IMG/VR virus record: IMGVR_UViG_3300025168_000263
Location: 1-36,303 of that record
Strand: one strand, 5' to 3'
DNA: 36,303 bases
Origin: a virus
Of the stretch, positions 4,332-16,616 are shown in pieces; position 1 is the stretch's first letter, and the number at the start of each line of letters is the position of its first letter. A model generated the notes under the pieces. It was given only the letters and a program-made list of their open reading frames with translations. It was not told the origin of the DNA and searched no databases. The translations under genes were made by a program, and so were the position numbers.

Positions 4332-5918
4332 TTAAGTTTTTTGTCCTGTTATCCAAGAAATTATTGAATTAGAATAACCCTCTTCTTTTTTTGTCATTCT
4401 TTCTTCAAAGCTATTTGCGTCAATTGCAGAACTTTTAGGAGGTTTTGCCGTATTAATAGCATACCACATTCCATCAAGAAGGTCATCATTTTTTCCTTTT
4501 GGAAACTGAAACATTTCATCTATTAACTCTTGGTGTTCTTTTTTAATAAATAGTTTTCTCGAGTTAACTATAGGACAAAGAAGTGCTTCTATTCTGTCTT
4601 CTTTTTTTATTCCATTAGGAGGTCTAATTCCTTGAGCTAGTCCAGGAGCTAGTCTTCTATCTGTACCTACAAGTCTATTTACATAATCTTTAATTACTCC
4701 CTGTGCCCCGACTTTTTCAACATTGACCCTTCTAACGGGGCTAAATCTTTTAGCGTATTCAAAAATCCTTTGAGGCATATCATATAGCGGAGACCTTTCT
4801 CTGTAATAATCTATTAAATATACATTTCTATCTTTGTCCATTGCTATTGTTAATATAACTTGATAGTCGCTAGTAGAATTTGCTTCATAAGCAAGGTCTA
4901 CTCCTATATATACATTAACAGGTATGGCGGATTCATCTACCATCATATAGTTAAATCCATTCCTTGACTCCATATTACCCCTATAATAATTTATTCTATC
5001 TATTTTAAATTTAGCAGAATCTAAGTCTCTTGCTTCATTAAGATACTCTTGTGCAAATTTATGTACAAGTCCCATATCAGAGAATCGTCTTCTAATATCT
5101 GATAGCTTTTTTTTGCTAAAATAATTTGGCCACAAAGGAATATCATCTTCAATAGCTTTTTTATACATTACCCTCCAAGCATATTCTCTTTTTTCTTTGT
5201 TTGCTAAAATATGTCCATCATAAATAGTTTGTAAAAAAGAATCATAGTGAACTATTGTTCCGATTAACCAAATAGAACCCTCGTCTTCTTTAGAGTTTTC
5301 TAATGCCGGTTCTACTGTAGACATTACCCATTCTTTGATTTCTCTTCTTCTATCTACTGTTTTTGTATTTAACTCCGACTCAAAGTCGTCAAGAACAATT
5401 TTGGTATATCTTAACCCTAACTGAGAACGACCACGCAATCTTTGGGATGTTCCTTTTGCTATAACTCTATCTCCCCTAGTGGTTGTAAATTCTTTTTCAG
5501 TCCACTTAGGTCCTTTTAAGTCTCCGAAGTAATATTGTAAAGCAGGATTAATATCAATATGATGTTGAATATATTTTATATGGTCTATTGCTTGAGACTG
5601 TTCTTCAGATACCCAAGCTATAAATTCTTTTTTATCTTTAGGGTTGAAATATAGTTTATGCAATAATGCTGTTTTTGCTAAAGTAGATTTTGCGTGACCA
5701 CGAGGTAATATAATACAAGCTCTTTTTTCGTCACCTAGCAATAGGTCGCTTAACTCATATTGGTATGGTGCTGGAAGAGATTTCATAAAATCTTCTGGTA
5801 AAAACATTTGACCAAAAGAAATAATGTCCCTACTAGCAACTTCCAAAGCTTTTTCTTTTGCTGAAAGGTCTGGAGGTATTATATTAAATATTTCAGGCTT
5901 CTTTGTATTCTTTTTCAT
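4332..5918 (-). CDS. terL: Terminase large subunit
   Basis: DNA-packaging motor and headful/cos nuclease, 528 residues. The ATPase domain has a Walker A variant LPRGHAKST at 71-79 and Walker B IVLDDFE at 174-180; the PRGHAKS form is typical of T7-like terminases. The RNase H-like nuclease domain follows with IGVDLA (338-343, Asp341), Glu401 in NVEKVG, and the acidic cluster NDDLLDG near 477-483. The length is normal and no catalytic residue appears lost. The start at ATG 5918 overlaps the end of the upstream gene by 26 bases, so translation is probably coupled. Confidence 0.95.
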   Translation of the reverse strand: MKKNTKKPEIFNIIPPDLSAKEKALEVASRDIISFGQMFLPEDFMKSLPAPYQYELSDLLLGDEKRACIILPRGHAKSTLAKTALLHKLYFNPKDKKEFIAWVSEEQSQAIDHIKYIQHHIDINPALQYYFGDLKGPKWTEKEFTTTRGDRVIAKGTSQRLRGRSQLGLRYTKIVLDDFESELNTKTVDRRREIKEWVMSTVEPALENSKEDEGSIWLIGTIVHYDSFLQTIYDGHILANKEKREYAWRVMYKKAIEDDIPLWPNYFSKKKLSDIRRRFSDMGLVHKFAQEYLNEARDLDSAKFKIDRINYYRGNMESRNGFNYMMVDESAIPVNVYIGVDLAYEANSTSDYQVILTIAMDKDRNVYLIDYYRERSPLYDMPQRIFEYAKRFSPVRRVNVEKVGAQGVIKDYVNRLVGTDRRLAPGLAQGIRPPNGIKKEDRIEALLCPIVNSRKLFIKKEHQELIDEMFQFPKGKNDDLLDGMWYAINTAKPPKSSAIDANSFEERMTKKEEGYSNSIISWITGQKT

Positions 5919-6288
5919 ATACCCTGTCTAACATTGTAAGAGTTTTTCTTGAATGCCAGTCTCCATCTGGAACTTCAGTAAATGATTGTGAATTTTGCCA
6001 TAGGCTAGGTCCGGCAACATATATCCACACTTTTTCTTCTTTTCCATTATCTAAAGTTACTGGAACTGTTGTTCTGATATATAATCCTGTGCTAACGCTT
6101 TCATATTCGTCGTACATATTAAGGTCTTCCGGAGTTGCATCCATTAGTTCAACTACAACACCTTTTCCTTTATTGTTTTTAATAATAGCAGGAAAAGACT
6201 TTGTTCCCGGAAATACCAAGCTAAAATTTTCTACTAGCCCCGTTTCTGGATATCCTCTTCTTAGTGTTCCATATACAGCTAATCTCAC
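5893..6288 (-). CDS. Gamma-glutamylcyclotransferase-like (AIG2/GGCT) protein
   Basis: A 131-residue protein with the hallmarks of the GGCT/AIG2-like fold: VYGTLRRG at 5-12 (substrate-binding loop) and MYDEYESVSTGLYIR at about 58-72, where Glu63 is the likely general acid/base. Family members cleave gamma-glutamyl amides, releasing 5-oxoproline and a free amine. The gene lies between small and large terminase genes and overlaps both neighbours (4 bases with the preceding gene, 26 with terL). It is not a packaging gene by family, so it is a moron-type insertion or has an undescribed role. Its relation to the amidoligase at 13204 is discussed in the findings. Confidence 0.82.
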   Translation of the reverse strand: MRLAVYGTLRRGYPETGLVENFSLVFPGTKSFPAIIKNNKGKGVVVELMDATPEDLNMYDEYESVSTGLYIRTTVPVTLDNGKEEKVWIYVAGPSLWQNSQSFTEVPDGDWHSRKTLTMLDRVYEKEYKEA

Positions 6289-8304: not shown

Positions 8305-8747
8305 TACTTACCCCATTTATTGTTTTTGACTACTAACGCCATTACTGCATATATAGCAGTATCTAGAAACGCATCTTCGATTGGTTCGTTCTGAGCCTTG
8401 AAGCTATGTTTCGTTGATAGGTTAACTAGTCGGTTTATCTTATCATTCATCCTTACTATAATACCTAATAAGGACATATTGACCTCTTCCTCAGTTCTTA
8501 ATTGAGTGCCCATAGCAATATTGCCCGGACCGTAGTCAAATTGTTTTTTACAGAATGTCATATACATTGTATTTAATACTTTCTGAAACTCGTGTTCTGT
8601 TTCAGGAAAGTTGTCTTTTATATGTAATACCACATTTTCGCCGGTTTTTTTCTTTTGAGGCATATCTGTAGCTTGTTGCAATTTCTGTACAAGCTCTCTA
8701 TTTCCCCTTTCTTTGGCTTTTATTATTTCTTTGTTGATTTTTTCCAT
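8304..8747 (-). CDS. Nucleotide modification associated domain 1 (DUF1599-like) protein
   Basis: A 147-residue protein whose residues 60-140 match the Nmad1/DUF1599 pattern: KQFDYGPGN (68-76), GIIVRMNDKINRL (95-107) and NEPIEDAFLDTAIYAVMAL (120-138). The conserved acidic residues and the R..DK motif resemble all-alpha MazG-like nucleotide-binding folds. In phages these proteins are linked with nucleotide or base-modification gene sets, though the biochemical activity is not settled. The first 45 residues are charged and variable. The start has TAGGAG upstream and overlaps the metallopeptidase gene by 25 bases. Confidence 0.8.
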   Translation of the reverse strand: MEKINKEIIKAKERGNRELVQKLQQATDMPQKKKTGENVVLHIKDNFPETEHEFQKVLNTMYMTFCKKQFDYGPGNIAMGTQLRTEEEVNMSLLGIIVRMNDKINRLVNLSTKHSFKAQNEPIEDAFLDTAIYAVMALVVKNNKWGK

Positions 8748-9028
8748 AGAAAATCTCCTACTCCTAGTTGATGTAATCCGTTAGATATTGCTTCTATTTG
8801 GCGTTCATTGTGTTCTAAGCCAGTATTGAAGTATATTGCGTGTAAAACCTCGTGTACTAAGGTCTCTACCTTCCTTGAATGGGTAACCTCTTCATTAAGT
8901 CTGATAATATTATGTTTTACTGCGTGTTGGCCGTATAACTCTTTATTTTCTTCTTTATGAACGAGTTGTTGCTCTACTACTTCATATAAGTGTCCACCTA
9001 TATTTAAACTCCTATTACTTTTTTTCAT
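8723..9028 (-). CDS. Small zinc metallopeptidase-like protein (HExxH)
   Basis: A 101-residue protein with VETLVHEVLHAIYF: the HExxH zinc motif is His59-Glu60 to His63, and Glu79 in ERQIEAISNGL is a likely third ligand. This is the arrangement of ImmA/IrrE-like and related gluzincins, here in minimal form without a DNA-binding domain. It is the first gene of the leftward operon, next to the control region, with GGGAG before ATG 9028. In phages such proteins may cut host or phage regulators. The substrate is unknown. Confidence 0.8.
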   Translation of the reverse strand: MKKSNRSLNIGGHLYEVVEQQLVHKEENKELYGQHAVKHNIIRLNEEVTHSRKVETLVHEVLHAIYFNTGLEHNERQIEAISNGLHQLGVGDFLWKKSTKK

Positions 9029-10146: not shown

Positions 10147-10235
10147 TGTTAGTCCCAAAAAAATGCTGTAGAAGCTAAATGCTACGTCAGCTAAATGTTT
10201 CGCTCCGCTAAATGCAACGCCTCTAATATACCCCC

Positions 10236-10267
10236 TTTTAGCCAAATGGCTTCGCATTTGGCTAAAA
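10236..10267 (+). other. 13-pair perfect hairpin carrying the repeat word
   Basis: TTTTAGCCAAATG (10236-10248) pairs fully with CATTTGGCTAAAA (10255-10267) around GCTTCG. It contains the AGCYAAATG repeat in both arms. Without a T run beyond the stem it is not a standard terminator on either strand. Confidence 0.7.
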
Positions 10268-10328
10268 AACCCCCGCCGAAATCGTCAGAATTGGCAAAAT
10301 TTGCCGTCTGCGGTTATTTAATAGAGGT

Positions 10329-10352
10329 ATAGCGGGGAATTACCCCCGCTAT
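10329..10352 (+). other. Nine-pair GC-rich hairpin after the minus-strand gene
   Basis: ATAGCGGGG (10329-10337) pairs with CCCCGCTAT (10344-10352) around AATTAC. It lies 17 bases beyond the stop of the leftward gene at 10369, where a terminator is expected, but no U tract follows on that strand. It may act as a 3'-end stabiliser. Confidence 0.6.
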
Positions 10353-10368
10353 TGATAGGATACAGCCG

Positions 10369-10836
10369 TTATTTACTTTCGGGCTGTTGTGAGATGTCTG
10401 CGGAAACTTTAAATTTCGCAATTCGTTTTGTCTGTGTTCGTGAAGAATCACGGGCTACAGATGTTAATGTTTCTTTATTATCGGAACATAATCTGTTAGC
10501 TTCTGTAACACTATCTAAAGCACTCTGTAATAGGTTGTTAATTGCTTGGCGGTTCTTATTGCCTTCTGACCAACTTTTACTAGTGAATAGATTAATACCG
10601 GAATCTTGACGGCCTTGTACGACTCTATAGGATAGGTCGTATTGTGTCATCTTGTTAGCTACGAATCCGTCAGCTTCTGCATTGGTGTCTTTAAGTATGC
10701 TTTTGGCGGTTCGGCCTTGTGGTACTTTGACACTATTATACAGAGCGTAGTCGTCGTAATAGGAAGATTCCATAGATACGCGGTTGTCTGCTGATACTTT
10801 AACACGCGAATCTGTGCTATTTGCTTGTCTTGTCAT
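10369..10836 (-). CDS. Hypothetical protein with SAD...SYYD motif, opposite strand
   Basis: A 155-residue protein starting at ATG 10836, chosen for the GGAG site 8 bases upstream; a longer frame to 10911 has none, and its ATG lies in a TATGATAG box that may be the -10. The N-terminal part has SADNRVSMESSYYDDY (residues 15-30), closely related to a segment of the 80-residue protein at 11673. A second VSAD lies near the C-terminus (about 146-149). The middle is helical and rich in N, S, Q and R. It is the only minus-strand gene within the rightward region, so it is transcribed separately. No family is recognised. Confidence 0.72.
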   Translation of the reverse strand: MTRQANSTDSRVKVSADNRVSMESSYYDDYALYNSVKVPQGRTAKSILKDTNAEADGFVANKMTQYDLSYRVVQGRQDSGINLFTSKSWSEGNKNRQAINNLLQSALDSVTEANRLCSDNKETLTSVARDSSRTQTKRIAKFKVSADISQQPESK

Positions 10837-10966
10837 ATTGATTTCTCCTTTGTTTAAGAGGTCGCAATTCTCACGACCAATATTTGGTAAATCGTTATTC
10901 TTAACTATCATAAATCAATTTAGTGAACTTAGACCAAAGGCACAAGGACTATATAAAATAAACCAG

Positions 10967-10990
10967 ACCGACCAGTCGGTTTAATTTTTT
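10967..10990 (+). terminator. Inverted repeat with T tract, terminator or operator
   Basis: ACCGAC-CA-GTCGGT (10967-10980) followed by TTAATTTTTT. As RNA the stem would be five pairs with a four-base loop, a weak terminator on the plus strand. Its place upstream of the leftward gene also suits an operator. Confidence 0.4.
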
Positions 10991-11056
10991 ATAAGCCCGT
11001 GATAGACCCGACGGGACGGCCTTTAGCTAAATGATACAGCAATAAGACCTAGTGTT

Positions 11057-11079
11057 TATAGCCAAATGTTTTGGCTATA
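11057..11079 (+). other. Ten-pair hairpin carrying AGCCAAATG
   Basis: TATAGCCAAA (11057-11066) pairs perfectly with TTTGGCTATA (11070-11079) around TGT. It repeats the AGCYAAATG word also found in the hairpin at 10236-10267. Confidence 0.65.
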
Positions 11080-11087
11080 AGTTGCTC

Positions 11088-11176
11088 CCGACCGGAGACA
11101 CGCCGACCGGAGGATAGTCTTTTTTTACTTCTTAAGCTAAATGCAAAAGCTCCCGACCGGAAGGTTCCCGACCGGA
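11088..11176 (+). repeat. Four copies of CCGACCGGA
   Basis: Exact copies at 11088-11096, 11103-11111, 11153-11161 and 11168-11176. They form two pairs with 15-base internal spacing, 50 bases between copies 2 and 3. Related CCGACCAG occurs at 10969 and 11270. The paired spacing suggests binding sites for a multimeric protein. Confidence 0.65.
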
Positions 11177-11267
11177 GGTATGCCGACAAAGAAAGTTCAT
11201 ATAACTATTGTAGGTATCGTCTATTCTCCGTAACTTGATTTATGCGGAACAACTGCAGCCGGTACTA

Positions 11268-11423
11268 ATGCCGACCAGAGATACCGCGACAGTAAATATG
11301 ATGACTAGAGAATATAACTATAATAGATATCACGACACACAGACGGATAGACATCGTATAATCGGACTACATACCCCGTGTCTGGGAATTGTAGACGGAA
11401 AGGTAGTACAATATGTTAGATAA
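11268..11423 (+). CDS. Possible small protein (uncertain)
   Basis: A 51-codon frame beginning MPTRDTATVNMMTREY and ending GKVVQYVR, overlapping the next gene by 11 bases. There is no good ribosome site at this ATG or at the two internal ones (11298, 11301), and the frame continues upstream to a TTG at 11235. The overlap with a following gene is the main support. It could be a chance frame. Confidence 0.3.
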   Translation: MPTRDTATVNMMTREYNYNRYHDTQTDRHRIIGLHTPCLGIVDGKVVQYVR

Positions 11424-11634
11424 ACAGCTAAAAGAAAAAAGACGAATAGTAAATGAAATTGCCCGTATTAAACAAGCAATACTAAATGTTAGAGTAGACG
11501 CAAATATCTTAGTCGCAGAGTTAGAGATTAACGAGAAAGACGCGGTCAAGATGGCTAACCTTATTAGTGATGGTTACGACTTGTTAGATGACGGACTAAA
11601 GATGTTCTATAAGATGATGAAGGACAGGTTTTAG
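11413..11634 (+). CDS. Small helical protein, first of amidoligase cassette
   Basis: A 73-residue, highly charged, almost wholly helical protein (MLDKQLKEKRRIVNEIARIK region, then KDAVKMANLISDGYDLL). Coiled-coil formation is likely in residues 3-45. GGAAAGG lies upstream of ATG 11413. It is the first well-supported gene of the run that ends with the amidotransferase and amidoligase. Function unknown. Confidence 0.6.
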   Translation: MLDKQLKEKRRIVNEIARIKQAILNVRVDANILVAELEINEKDAVKMANLISDGYDLLDDGLKMFYKMMKDRF

Positions 11635-11672
11635 AATGTTTAAGATAAATAATAATAGACTGGAGGTCTAGA

Positions 11673-11915
11673 ATGAGTAAATCAATAGTTAATCAAAATA
11701 TATCTGCCGATATGAGAAGTCAAGAAGATTCTTATTACGACGGGCATATTTCTGACCCTTGTGATGTGTGTACATACGATGAGGGCGTAAGAACAATAGA
11801 CCAAGAGGTCTACTATATACAAGATGATAATGGTCGTCTTGTTGTAGATGTACAATCTACTATGGACGAGTTTGAGAACAGACTAGCTAATCTTAACTTG
11901 AATAAGAGTAGATAA
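11673..11915 (+). CDS. Acidic small protein with SAD-R-SYYD motif
   Basis: An 80-residue acidic protein with a strong site, GGAGGTC, before ATG 11673. Residues 10-23 (ISADMRSQEDSYYD) match a segment of the protein encoded at 10369-10836 although the codons differ. This points to protein-level conservation. Next come CDVC (about 30-33) and an acidic middle (DDNGRLVVDVQSTMDEFENR). Such short acidic proteins beside amidoligases could be substrates, but this is inference. Two genes downstream is the amidotransferase. Confidence 0.7.
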   Translation: MSKSIVNQNISADMRSQEDSYYDGHISDPCDVCTYDEGVRTIDQEVYYIQDDNGRLVVDVQSTMDEFENRLANLNLNKSR

Positions 11916-11920
11916 TTATA

Positions 11921-12115
11921 ATGAATAGTTACAAAAATATAACGGCGGTCGCCTTATTAGGTAGAGATATGCAAACAAGTCCAATTAGTGCAGACTTCTC
12001 TTCCTCAGACCGCCGATTTTTGTCAAAGAATTTGCTTATATATATAGCAAGTAAAAAGATAGTTAGCCTTGACGGGTTAGCTATAAATATTAACACTAAA
12101 GACAAAGGAAAATAG
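11921..12115 (+). CDS. Small hypothetical protein with ISAD sequence
   Basis: A 64-residue frame filling the gap between the 80-residue gene (ends 11915) and the amidotransferase (starts 12119). It contains PISADFSSSDRRF (about 21-33), again with SAD, then a hydrophobic stretch LLIYIASKKIV and a basic tail. It lacks a clear Shine-Dalgarno, so translation may depend on coupling to the upstream stop five bases away. Tight packing is the main support. Confidence 0.5.
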   Translation: MNSYKNITAVALLGRDMQTSPISADFSSSDRRFLSKNLLIYIASKKIVSLDGLAININTKDKGK

Positions 12116-12118
12116 ACT

Positions 12119-13204
12119 ATGTGTGGAATATACGGAATAGCAAAAAGTCCAGAACCTTATACTAAGAAGCAATTAAAAACTGCCAAAAAAGTATTAAGAC
12201 AGATAGCAATAGACAGCGAAACTAGAGGTAGTCACTCGTCGGGTATTGCTTCAGTTGGACTAGAAACTAATATATATAAATCATTACTCAAGTCTAGCAA
12301 ATTTGTGACTTCTAAAGATTATGCAAGAGCATTAGCTTCTATAGCTAAAAACTCTAGTCAGATTCTATTAGGACATACAAGATTTGCGACTGAAGGTGCA
12401 GTTACCGTCCAGAACGCACACCCATTTAAAGTTGGTGGTGTGGTCGGTGCTCATAATGGCTGTGTTTATAACATAGACGAGATGAAGACCAAACTGAACA
12501 AAGACTGCCCGGTAGATAGTCAATTAATCTTTAAATCAATAGACAAAGCAGACGGGATTCAAGATGCAGTTAAGTATTTTGAGTCTGATTTTGCTTTATC
12601 TTTTGTTAAAGATAATCCTCAAATACTGCATTTATGCCGTGAGGATAACAGACCGCTGTTTGTTGCCTATGTAACCAGTCTTAAAACTCTATTCTATGCT
12701 AGTGAAGGCGACTTCATTGAGGACGCATTAATTATGGCTGGAATAAGCGATGTAGAGGTGTATCAGTTAAGTAAAAATAACTTATATAGCTACAATGTCA
12801 ATCAGTTTACAGACAAAGAAACAAATGTAACAAAAACATCTTTTGACTATGAAAGTATGCAACACTATACACCTACTTATTTAAATAACTATACTAATAA
12901 GACTACACCAGCGACACAGATTAATGCAGGTCAGTATGATTATAGTTGGATTGATAACGACGGAAAGTGGCATGATGGTAAATCTGAACTTATAGAAGAT
13001 GTAGACCATGTTGCATTAGAAGCAGATAAATATGCTCTAATTAGTATGTATGGCGGTAATGAAGAGGACTGGATTTTTGATGAATGGGATAGAACTTGGT
13101 TTTATATCCGTCCAGACGGAGCTCTCTTATCAGTAGATACAGTAGATAGAATGGAAAGAGAAGCTGACGGTATTACTGACGGCTATAATCAGGAGGTCAA
13201 ATAA
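12119..13204 (+). CDS. Class II glutamine amidotransferase
   Basis: A 361-residue protein with an Ntn-type glutaminase domain. Cys2 would become the N-terminal nucleophile after Met removal (MCGIYGI). Other family signatures are RGSHSSGI (36-43), GHTRFAT (85-91), NAHPF (99-103) and AHNG (111-114, oxyanion hole). This domain hydrolyses glutamine to glutamate and ammonia. Residues about 230-361 are not an asparagine-synthetase or GFAT synthase domain but a short acidic tail with WIDNDGKWHDGK and WIFDEWDRTWFYIRPDG repeats of W and D. So it has no acceptor domain of its own. It ends in a TAATG overlap with the amidoligase gene, suggesting the two work as a pair. Confidence 0.9.
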   Translation: MCGIYGIAKSPEPYTKKQLKTAKKVLRQIAIDSETRGSHSSGIASVGLETNIYKSLLKSSKFVTSKDYARALASIAKNSSQILLGHTRFATEGAVTVQNAHPFKVGGVVGAHNGCVYNIDEMKTKLNKDCPVDSQLIFKSIDKADGIQDAVKYFESDFALSFVKDNPQILHLCREDNRPLFVAYVTSLKTLFYASEGDFIEDALIMAGISDVEVYQLSKNNLYSYNVNQFTDKETNVTKTSFDYESMQHYTPTYLNNYTNKTTPATQINAGQYDYSWIDNDGKWHDGKSELIEDVDHVALEADKYALISMYGGNEEDWIFDEWDRTWFYIRPDGALLSVDTVDRMEREADGITDGYNQEVK

Positions 13205-14940
13205 TGACGCCACTTAACACAAGTCCGACAGAAATAGTCTTCGTTGATTGTTCGTCCTGTGCAGATAGTACATTGCCAGAAGATGTAAGAGTAGATGACA
13301 ACGGTGACAACTTCTGCGAGGACTGCTATTATGAGGTCTATGAACAATGCGGTACTTGTGGCGATGAAATGTCTTCAGAAGATAGTCATAATATTGGCGA
13401 CGATGTACTCTGTGAGGGTTGTTTCTACGACTATAATACCTATTGTAATGATTGTGGCGACGCTACATCCTTAGACTATACTAATGATGACGGCGTTTGT
13501 GACGATTGCGACGAAGACAACAGACAAGAATATCACGACTGGAATGTCTACGACACTAATACTATAGAATATGGGCATAGTTTCCTTAGTCCAGACAGAG
13601 ATTGTTACAATCTTAAAGACGGACAGATGGTATCGCCACACGGAATACCTTCACACGACAGATTAGATAGTTTCTCATTAATACCGTCTAGGCGTTATCA
13701 AGGCGTAGAAATTGAGGTCAATGACAAGGGTAATTACGACCGCGATTCAATGAGAGATATAGTTAATGCAGATATTCAGGACACTAGAGGTGGAAATGTT
13801 AGACCTAGTGTAGATGTTGTTTATGACGGCTCTGTTACTGGTGGCGAACACGAGTACGGCTTTGAATATGTGTTACACCCAAGACGCGGCGACCTACTTG
13901 TACACGACTTAAAAGTTGTGTCAAAGTCAGTTAGTCAGCACGGAGGATATATATCTAGCAAATGTGGATATCATCTACATATAGACACTAGAGATTATGA
14001 CTGGTATCATTTTGCAGTCTTAACTCTTATGACTAAGATGATTGAGCCGCATATATATAGTTGGATAGCACCTTCTAGACAAAGTAGTCGCTGGTGTAAA
14101 CCTATTAGTCAATCTCTTGCTAGTTTTAGCGATATTTATGACAGAGATAGCTTTATGGAGTTCTATTACGACGAGTGTAGGTATAGTCACGACAAGTATA
14201 ACGACAAGCGTTATCACGGACTGAATTTACATAGTCACTTTCAAGCCAATCAAGGTACTGAACTAAGATACCATTCCGGCACTTTAAATCCGGACAAAAT
14301 GGTACATTGGTCTATATTTTGGGGTAATGTGATTGATAGATGTAAGGTTATTGCTGACGAATTGTATGAATCTGGAGATATAAGAAACGGACTTAGGAAT
14401 AGTAAGTTTTACCAAAGTCTAGTCAATCCTTATCCTGACACCATACTAAGTAAAGAGTCAATAGACGAGATTTATACTTCATTAGTATCAGCCTCGGACA
14501 GAAAGGATTGGTCTAATGAGTCCTATAATCGTATGTCCGACTCTATGGTTACTATACTTACTAACGGCGACCATAACGAGTTTGACGGCACACCAAGAGT
14601 AGAATCAATATTGGCTTTACTTAAGGGGTCTAGACAATACGGATTGCCTGTGATTTCATATAGGTCAATGTGTCAGGTCTTTGATATTCCTGATAAAACA
14701 ATGCTGTTTTATAGGCAAAGAGCTATGCAGTTTAGTAACGACGAAAATTCTGTTGCAGGATTTGAAAAAGTTACTAGCTTTGCAACCTTTGACACAAATA
14801 CTAATACATTCAATCATATAGATTGGTTACTCCATAGACTGCAAAAAGTGTCTAATGGAGATATTAGTAGGAATGCGTACTTTGATAACTATAGTAGGCT
14901 GAGAATAAATCCTAGACAGATATTAAGATATATTGGATAG
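13204..14940 (+). CDS. Amidoligase with three N-terminal zinc ribbons
   Basis: A 578-residue protein. Residues 16-102 hold three CxxC...CxxC zinc ribbons: Cys16/19/38/41, Cys49/52/70/73 and Cys81/84/99/102. Residues about 160-400 form a glutamine-synthetase-fold amidoligase (amidoligase_2 type): GVEIEV (167-172, metal-binding Glu169 and Glu171), DGSV (208-211), GFEYVLHP (219-226), CGYHLHID (254-261) and ELRYHSGTLN (353-362). These enzymes are ATP-dependent COOH-NH2 ligases. The remaining 180 residues are helical and unassigned. AGGAGGT precedes ATG 13204 and the start overlaps the amidotransferase stop. The neighbour can supply ammonia, so amidation of a carboxylate is a natural guess. The zinc ribbons may choose a protein or nucleic-acid target. 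Confidence 0.88.
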   Translation: MTPLNTSPTEIVFVDCSSCADSTLPEDVRVDDNGDNFCEDCYYEVYEQCGTCGDEMSSEDSHNIGDDVLCEGCFYDYNTYCNDCGDATSLDYTNDDGVCDDCDEDNRQEYHDWNVYDTNTIEYGHSFLSPDRDCYNLKDGQMVSPHGIPSHDRLDSFSLIPSRRYQGVEIEVNDKGNYDRDSMRDIVNADIQDTRGGNVRPSVDVVYDGSVTGGEHEYGFEYVLHPRRGDLLVHDLKVVSKSVSQHGGYISSKCGYHLHIDTRDYDWYHFAVLTLMTKMIEPHIYSWIAPSRQSSRWCKPISQSLASFSDIYDRDSFMEFYYDECRYSHDKYNDKRYHGLNLHSHFQANQGTELRYHSGTLNPDKMVHWSIFWGNVIDRCKVIADELYESGDIRNGLRNSKFYQSLVNPYPDTILSKESIDEIYTSLVSASDRKDWSNESYNRMSDSMVTILTNGDHNEFDGTPRVESILALLKGSRQYGLPVISYRSMCQVFDIPDKTMLFYRQRAMQFSNDENSVAGFEKVTSFATFDTNTNTFNHIDWLLHRLQKVSNGDISRNAYFDNYSRLRINPRQILRYIG

Positions 14941-15028: not shown

Positions 15029-15065
15029 CAGCTAAACGTGAAAAGGTTCAGCTAAACGTAAAAAG
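15029..15065 (+). repeat. Tandem CAGCTAAACGTRAAAAG repeats
   Basis: Copies at 15029-15045 and 15049-15065 differ at one base (G/A) and are spaced by 20 bases. Their core AGCTAAACG is related to the AGCYAAATG words at 10173-11143, placing the family on both sides of the amidoligase cassette. Confidence 0.6.
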
Positions 15066-16175: not shown

Positions 16176-16348
16176 GAACAATAGTAAAATGGAAAGTAGA
16201 TAATGCTATTACGCACTTACAAGAACTACAAGATATATTGAAAGAAATGCAACAAGATAAATCTGGAATAAAGCCTACGACTATAAAATGGTTGTCAGGA
16301 GAAATTGGAATGGCAATAGAAATTCTAGGAGGAAAAGAAGATGAGTAA
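16172..16348 (+). CDS. Small hypothetical protein, 58 residues
   Basis: Begins MRTIVKWKVDNAITHLQEL and ends GMAIEILGGKEDE. Mostly helical. The ATGA overlap at its start, GGAGGAAG ribosome site and ATGAGTAA overlap with the GroES start support a real gene. No family is recognised. Confidence 0.65.
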   Translation: MRTIVKWKVDNAITHLQELQDILKEMQQDKSGIKPTTIKWLSGEIGMAIEILGGKEDE

Positions 16349-16616
16349 AATAAAACCACTAGACAATAGATTACTAGTACAAGCAGACGCAGTAAAAGAG
16401 AAGACCAATAGTGGTATCTTAGTATCTTCTGAGACTCAAAAGAAACCAAACACTGGAGTAGTAGTTGCAGTCGGACCAAAGGTTAAAGCTCTTAAGTCTG
16501 GCGACTATATTACATATCCAGATTATTCAGGAACTGTTGTTGTAACAGACGGAAGCGAATACTTAATAATGAGAGAGACTGAAGTCTTAGCAATTATAGG
16601 AGAATATACAGCATGA
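16341..16616 (+). CDS. groES: Phage GroES-like co-chaperonin
   Basis: A 91-residue Cpn10 protein of normal length. It starts with the family sequence IKPLDNRLLVQ, then the mobile loop region EKTNSGILVSSETQKK (about 20-35) that binds GroEL, then TGVVVAVGP (38-46) and the C-terminal YLIMRETEVLAIIG. It would cap host GroEL; no GroEL is encoded in the window. By analogy with T4 gp31 it may adapt GroEL for folding the phage capsid protein. It sits in the early rightward run, not with head genes. GGAGGAAAA is upstream. Confidence 0.94.
   Translation: MSKIKPLDNRLLVQADAVKEKTNSGILVSSETQKKPNTGVVVAVGPKVKALKSGDYITYPDYSGTVVVTDGSEYLIMRETEVLAIIGEYTA

Follow-up and report, generated by a model that had tools for sequence, protein, structure and literature searches.

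A glutaminase and a zinc-ribbon amidoligase encoded by overlapping genes in a phage lineage: a candidate glutamine-dependent amide-forming enzyme

What do a glutaminase and an amidoligase make together when a phage encodes them in overlapping genes, and on which substrate do they act? The pair in question is located on the 36.3-kb linear IMG/VR virus contig IMGVR_UViG_3300025168_000263 (36,303 nucleotides, analysed over its whole length and referred to here as the window), where the gene for a class II, N-terminal nucleophile (Ntn) glutamine amidotransferase (GATase) without an acceptor domain (361 aa, 12119..13204, plus strand; hereafter glutaminase) is followed by the gene for a zinc-ribbon amidoligase (578 aa, 13204..14940, plus strand). 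We conclude that the pair is a real, well-conserved enzyme set, and we consider it rather likely that the two proteins are subunits of one glutamine-dependent amide-forming enzyme, which would represent a known phage module in reduced, zinc-ribbon form.

The stop codon of the glutaminase gene and the start codon of the amidoligase gene have one base in common (TAATG, 13202-13206), and a Shine-Dalgarno sequence, AGGAGGT (13191-13197), is located six bases ahead of the amidoligase start. Judged from sequence, this arrangement (13191..13206, plus strand) implies that both genes are translationally coupled. Scans of IMG/VR yielded 46 dereplicated glutaminase relatives, the window counted among them. 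An amidoligase gene follows the glutaminase gene in 45 of these, and the contig of the 46th stops 13 nt past the glutaminase gene; since the gene overlap is also the usual arrangement among the relatives, the recurrence of the pair is not due to chance. The overlap, coordinates and motifs given in a preliminary description of the window were all recovered, profile searches confirmed both enzyme families, and the two genes, which would have had to be found apart in relatives to contradict that description, stay together. At the median, the relatives are 55% identical to the window in the glutaminase and 36% in the amidoligase; terminase, portal and helicase reach 78-80%. The amidoligase is thus the fastest-diverging large gene of the compared set. 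The minus strand of the window carries the terminase, portal and major head genes, the plus strand exonuclease, RusA-like and DnaB-like genes, and the pair stands ahead of this plus-strand block, where the replication genes begin. The lineage has no close cultured relative: over most of its length, its terminase reaches at best ~25% identity to phage records.

The glutaminase starts with M-C-G and contains the motifs RGSHSSGI (aa 36-43), GHTRFAT (aa 85-91) and AHNG (aa 111-114). It matches Pfam GATase_6 (8e-15, above the cut-off) and PHROG 4736 (1.5e-41), with sub-threshold matches only in NCBIfam. The nucleophile C2 and the glutamine-site residues R88, T91, N113, G114 and D133 are invariant in 33 relatives; in a 14-way alignment including E. 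coli GlmS, where they correspond to C1/R73/T76/N98/G99/D123, T91 is nearly invariant and the others fully so. The protein thus has the features of class II amidotransferases, i.e. a Cys after the Met and the Arg, Asn-Gly and Asp of the glutamine site, and it best matches glutamine-hydrolysing enzymes (GlmS-type 4.9e-17 vs EgtC 5e-4). Its predicted acceptor enzyme is the amidoligase, a partnership suggested by the gene overlap.

The amidoligase contains the motifs GVEIEV (aa 167-172), GFEYVLHP (aa 219-226), CGYHLHID (aa 254-261) and RYHSGT (aa 355-360) and matches Pfam Amidoligase_2 (PF12224) over aa 205-372 (2.9e-16, 60.5 bits vs a cut-off of 22). Its catalytic core, putatively of the glutamine synthetase (GS) fold (13699..14340, plus strand, aa 166-379), comprises G-x-E169-I-E171, D208-G-S210, E221, G255-x-H257-x-H259, N341 and E353-x-R355. 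The 36 relatives compared, which reach down to 27% identity, all have E169, E171, D208, S210, E221, H257, H259, N341, E353 and R355, and the equivalent positions do not vary in a 13-way alignment that includes unrelated phage amidoligases. The GS-like catalytic residues of Amidoligase_2 (ExE, HxH, ExR) are therefore present, and the residues of the ATP- and metal-binding type, on which the preliminary description had made its proposal depend, are intact; the enzyme is predicted to form amide bonds using ATP. A structure model of the amidoligase (predicted local distance difference test, pLDDT, 80.9; predicted TM-score, pTM, 0.73) gave as best Foldseek matches in the PDB YbdK (1r8g/1tt4; E 2e-4, prob 0.98-1.0), followed by glutamine synthetases, which points to a GS fold of the core. 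The C-terminal extension (14371..14937, plus strand) is mostly helical in the model and the least conserved part of the protein in the alignment. In one related locus (L046:10049-11789; L numbers denote loci), the amidoligase is broken into two overlapping open reading frames (ORFs), either by a frameshift or by an assembly error.

Which part of the amidoligase could select a substrate? The three N-terminal zinc ribbons noted earlier were confirmed: six CxxC motifs form three four-Cys ribbons at aa 16-41 (13249..13326; C16-x2-C19 and C38-x2-C41), aa 49-73 (13348..13422; C49, C52, C70, C73) and aa 81-102 (13444..13509; C81, C84, C99, C102), all on the plus strand. A 7-way alignment with relatives of ~40% identity shows no replacement of any of the 12 Cys, and most of the 36 relatives have all six motifs, with ribbon 2 lost or disrupted in a few (L056, L069, L074, L095, L097). 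A profile search of the PDB found the ribbon part, including ribbon 1, weakly LIM-like (E 0.0027); it is no LIM domain in the strict sense, since it consists of three CxxC-x(14-18)-CxxC ribbons with 7-residue linkers instead of the LIM Cys/His spacing with a two-residue linker. The second-best match in a viral structure library was a 'LIM domain containing protein' of an uncultured phage, from which we conclude that chains combining ribbons and amidoligase are already present in databases; a literature search found no paper on them. The region ahead of the core is strongly acidic in all 36 relatives (isoelectric point, pI, 4.05-4.57), which favours binding of protein or peptide over binding of nucleic acid. 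A few remote relatives (L141, L167) have basic ribbons, so acidity is no rule for Cys-rich amidoligases in general.

To place these proteins among other amidoligases, we used searches seeded with amidoligases only, excluding loci found through GATase queries, and grouping at 50% core identity left 57 clusters that were informative; those with at least three CxxC motifs ahead of the core were classified as Cys-rich, and genes within 3 kb as neighbours. A GATase gene was a neighbour in 16/16 Cys-rich clusters and in 14/41 clusters without ribbons, a gamma-glutamyl cyclotransferase (GGCT) gene in 0/16 and 17/41, respectively. The tree unites the Cys-rich clusters in a single clade (SH-aLRT 86), together with one near-Cys-rich member, L189. 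Three gene orders occur within this clade: GATase-amidoligase, as in the window, amidoligase-GATase, and amidoligase-GATase-amidoligase. The last is found in a sister phage lineage in which two ribbon amidoligases lie on either side of one GATase (L138, L142, L151, L165, L166, L169, L172, L185, L200); the terminase of that lineage, in records with the complete gene, shows 61-70% identity. The Cys-rich pairs L133, L134 and L136 adjoin genes for a COOH-NH2 ligase and an ATP-grasp protein, which ties the Cys-rich pairs to the published module (PMC5498523, PMC11945000, PMC3890496). A 165-kb contig from an Elusimicrobia metagenome-assembled genome (MAG), JAGWUP010000007.1, carries three amidoligase loci; two of them (L120, L121) encode extremely Cys-rich N-termini (22 and 29 CxxC) with an adjacent GATase. 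This contig is possibly a misbinned large phage; a search for closer viral relatives of its Cys-rich enzyme found none, and PHROG matches of the neighbours at the Elusimicrobia and L134 loci were uninformative.

A third enzyme belongs to the gene set of the pair and was missed in the preliminary description, as it lies outside the coordinates considered there: a GGACT-family GGCT of 131 aa (5893..6288, minus strand; PF06094, 7.4e-16), encoded between the genes for the small and large terminase subunits. It has the YGxL motif (YGTLRRG) and the catalytic-type glutamate E63 (in YDEYES) of GGACT/GGCT proteins; E63 falls on the family Glu in the profile alignment, which we preferred over a MAFFT alignment displaced by three residues. 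Searches with PF06094 found the cyclotransferase in 17/17 records of the lineage, and it is present in 45/46 relatives, the 46th having too short a flank. It also occurs in most records of the sister lineage and is missing from nearly all more distant Cys-rich records (L104 has it). Neither an ATP-grasp protein (protein query) nor a COOH-NH2 ligase (PF14395) was detected in any of the 17 lineage records, which may be fragments, by searches that found both positive controls.

How does this set relate to known systems? The passages of PMC5498523 and PMC11945000 that bear on it trace the phage 'peptidoglycan modification' module of the phiEco32 / LUZ24 / RIO-1 / PSA-HP1 type to Iyer et al. 2009 and Hardies et al. 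2013, and cell-wall modification and superinfection exclusion have been proposed as its roles (PMC5498523, PMC11945000, PMC10580990). In common with this module, the window has an Amidoligase_2 enzyme, a class II GATase and a GGCT/AIG2 protein, with the amidoligase and GATase genes adjacent or close. It differs by the lack of ATP-grasp and COOH-NH2 ligase in the lineage, by the three zinc ribbons and C-terminal extension of the amidoligase, by the position of the GATase gene ahead of and overlapping the amidoligase gene, and by a GGCT gene that stands apart among the terminase genes. The earlier designation as a candidate modification system therefore holds for the enzymes, but overlooked that they are a variant of a described module; the window set is a three-enzyme zinc-ribbon version of a module whose assignment to peptidoglycan modification is a proposal from the literature, in which our search found no report of a direct test of peptidoglycan action for any member. 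Arthrobacter phages (Ottawa, Laroyevirus) likewise encode an adjacent pair, and neither an ATP-grasp protein nor a COOH-NH2 ligase is annotated next to it, but their amidoligase is 324-338 aa long, lacks ribbons and precedes the GATase. The Cys-rich loci L120, L121 and L127-L176 (IMG/VR contigs and the Elusimicrobia contig) are like the window in their Cys-rich N-terminus, GS-fold core, adjacent class II GATase and membership in one clade, and unlike it in how their Cys are arranged (up to 29 CxxC), in gene order and in often having two amidoligases flanking one GATase. The logic of a ligase with a glutamine-amidotransferase-type partner is also that of PuuA/PuuD, EgtA/EgtC and MurT/GatD, which are not homologous as pairs to the window pair, GatD and PuuD being class I enzymes and MurT a Mur ligase.

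From gene content, intact catalytic residues, fold, co-conservation and clade structure we infer the following mechanism. The class II glutaminase would hydrolyse glutamine at Cys2 and, in a complex with the GS-fold amidoligase, pass the ammonia on to it; the amidoligase would then activate a carboxylate with ATP and make the amide. The acidic, LIM-like ribbons may serve as a recruiting module and, together with the variable C-terminal part, choose the substrate, and the cyclotransferase encoded near the terminase genes may act on the same product. Several observations weigh against this interpretation. The whole-chain TM-scores of the amidoligase model to YbdK and GS are low (0.2-0.35), so that the fold match supports a GS fold for the core only, and hhalign detected no similarity between the amidoligase profile and single sequences of E. 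coli YbdK or GlnA. Many phage amidoligases occur without any glutaminase in the record. The cyclotransferase gene lies on the opposite strand, 6 kb from the pair, and is missing in most distant Cys-rich relatives, and for these reasons its functional link to the pair is presumptive. The association between a Cys-rich N-terminus and a nearby GATase (Fisher test, p 2.7e-6) was rejected as independent evidence, because the tree places all Cys-rich clusters in one clade; the weight lies instead in a pairing that has outlasted divergence of the core to below 40% identity as well as changes in gene order. Finally, the papers found contain no biochemistry for the family.

The main rival, which we regard as unlikely, is gamma-glutamylation and its removal: the amidoligase, like gamma-glutamylputrescine synthetase or a YbdK-type ligase, would join the gamma-carboxyl of glutamate to an amine, and the GATase, as an EgtC-like gamma-glutamyl hydrolase rather than an ammonia donor, and/or the cyclotransferase would take the group off again. 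The nearest solved fold, YbdK, is indeed a weak gamma-glutamylcysteine ligase, the GATase, having kept R88 and D133, would bind a free gamma-glutamyl group under either reading and weakly matches EgtC, the lineage conserves the cyclotransferase, and there are GGCT-linked amidoligases that lack a glutaminase altogether. Against this, the closest matches of the glutaminase are the glutamine-hydrolysing enzymes, the close translational overlap is more suggestive of a stoichiometric complex than of opposed activities, and a hydrolase in addition to a cyclotransferase would be redundant. It is improbable that the set performs a reversible modification of macromolecules, in which the ribbons would recruit a protein target, the glutaminase-fed ligase would write an amide or gamma-glutamyl mark early in infection and the cyclotransferase, whose gene is grouped with those of the terminase, would erase it late.

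Auxiliary metabolism, i.e. enhancement of host nitrogen or amino-acid metabolism with no macromolecule modified, appears quite improbable to us. Such a role has been proposed for the Planctomycetes phage ZRK32, which has the same enzyme classes and is reported to promote growth with nitrate or ammonium, in passages that contain no test of individual genes (PMC10945688). Metabolic enzymes need no conserved zinc ribbons, and the divergence of the amidoligase relative to the other large genes is unlike that of a housekeeping metabolic enzyme.

The preliminary description had further suggested that one of the small proteins preceding the pair in the same direction, or DNA, might be the substrate, and this part of its proposal of glutamine-dependent amidation or conjugation found no support; the proposal itself remains the natural reading of intact catalytic sites in genes that travel together. 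Three such ORFs do precede the pair on the plus strand: 11413..11634 (73 aa, helical-looking), with possible homologs in ~9-10/46 relatives, 11673..11915 (80 aa), with a homolog in L006/L050 only, and 11921..12115 (64 aa, directly upstream of the glutaminase gene), for which a search found no homolog. A role of one of them as dedicated substrate or carrier, similar to a ribosomally synthesized and post-translationally modified peptide (RiPP) or Pup, would fit their position and strand, and was rejected as very unlikely, since they are poorly conserved and none has a Pup-like GGE/GGQ end or a family match. In 31-36/46 relatives, a different protein of ~155 aa with an N-terminal C-x-x-C (CPxC; e.g. 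L010:6179-6643) is encoded upstream of the pair, which could be taken to favour such a substrate, but it is not present in the window and its family keeps only two residues invariant, both Cys. It matched no known family or fold, and we discarded it as a ubiquitin-like partner because of its poor model (pLDDT 69) and the missing fold match. Phages carry amidated or amino-acid-linked bases, and the pair stands at the start of the replication genes, but modification of phage or host DNA is equally remote, given ribbons far more acidic than DNA-binding domains and no known base-modification or base-hypermodification enzyme among the window proteins scanned.

For the proposed amide-forming enzyme, we tentatively place a cell-wall precursor peptide first among the conceivable targets; a host or phage protein is possible, a small metabolite unlikely, and a nucleic acid quite improbable.

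Further features of the window are a GroES-like co-chaperonin gene (16341-16616, plus strand; NCBIfam 1.4e-21, below the family cut-off), with ~79%-identical homologs in 5 relatives, and a gene for a small HExxH protein resembling IrrE/SprT-type metallopeptidases (8723-9028, minus strand; below cut-off), which is kept in 45 relatives. The motif AGCTAAAYG occurs in 7 copies (0.8 expected), in the gaps on either side of the pair (10173-11143, 15030-15058); the relative L050 also has 7 copies and nearly all others none, and some relatives have different repeated 9-mers, e.g. AGCTAGACT. Five near-copies of CCGACCGGAG are located at 11088-11280, just 5' of the small genes (chance ~0.2 in the whole window). 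The unrelated-looking ORFs 10369-10911 (minus strand) and 11673-11915 (plus strand) have a similar stretch in common (SYYDD / SYYDG), detected as an inverted repeat. Searches against PADLOC defence families and Rfam gave no match.

The annotation of phage amidoligase/glutaminase modules goes back to 2009, and we found no paper showing what they modify. New here are a Cys-rich clade in which all 16 clusters are paired with a glutaminase, the presence of the cyclotransferase in the lineage, and the lack of ATP-grasp and COOH-NH2 ligase in its 17 records searched. The lineage offers a minimal, invariably conserved version of the module that includes a cyclotransferase and has a candidate recruiting domain built into the amidoligase. 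If its substrate were found, this would reveal a phage-driven reaction, amidation or conjugation, that is new, and would settle the idea of superinfection exclusion that genome papers have repeated.

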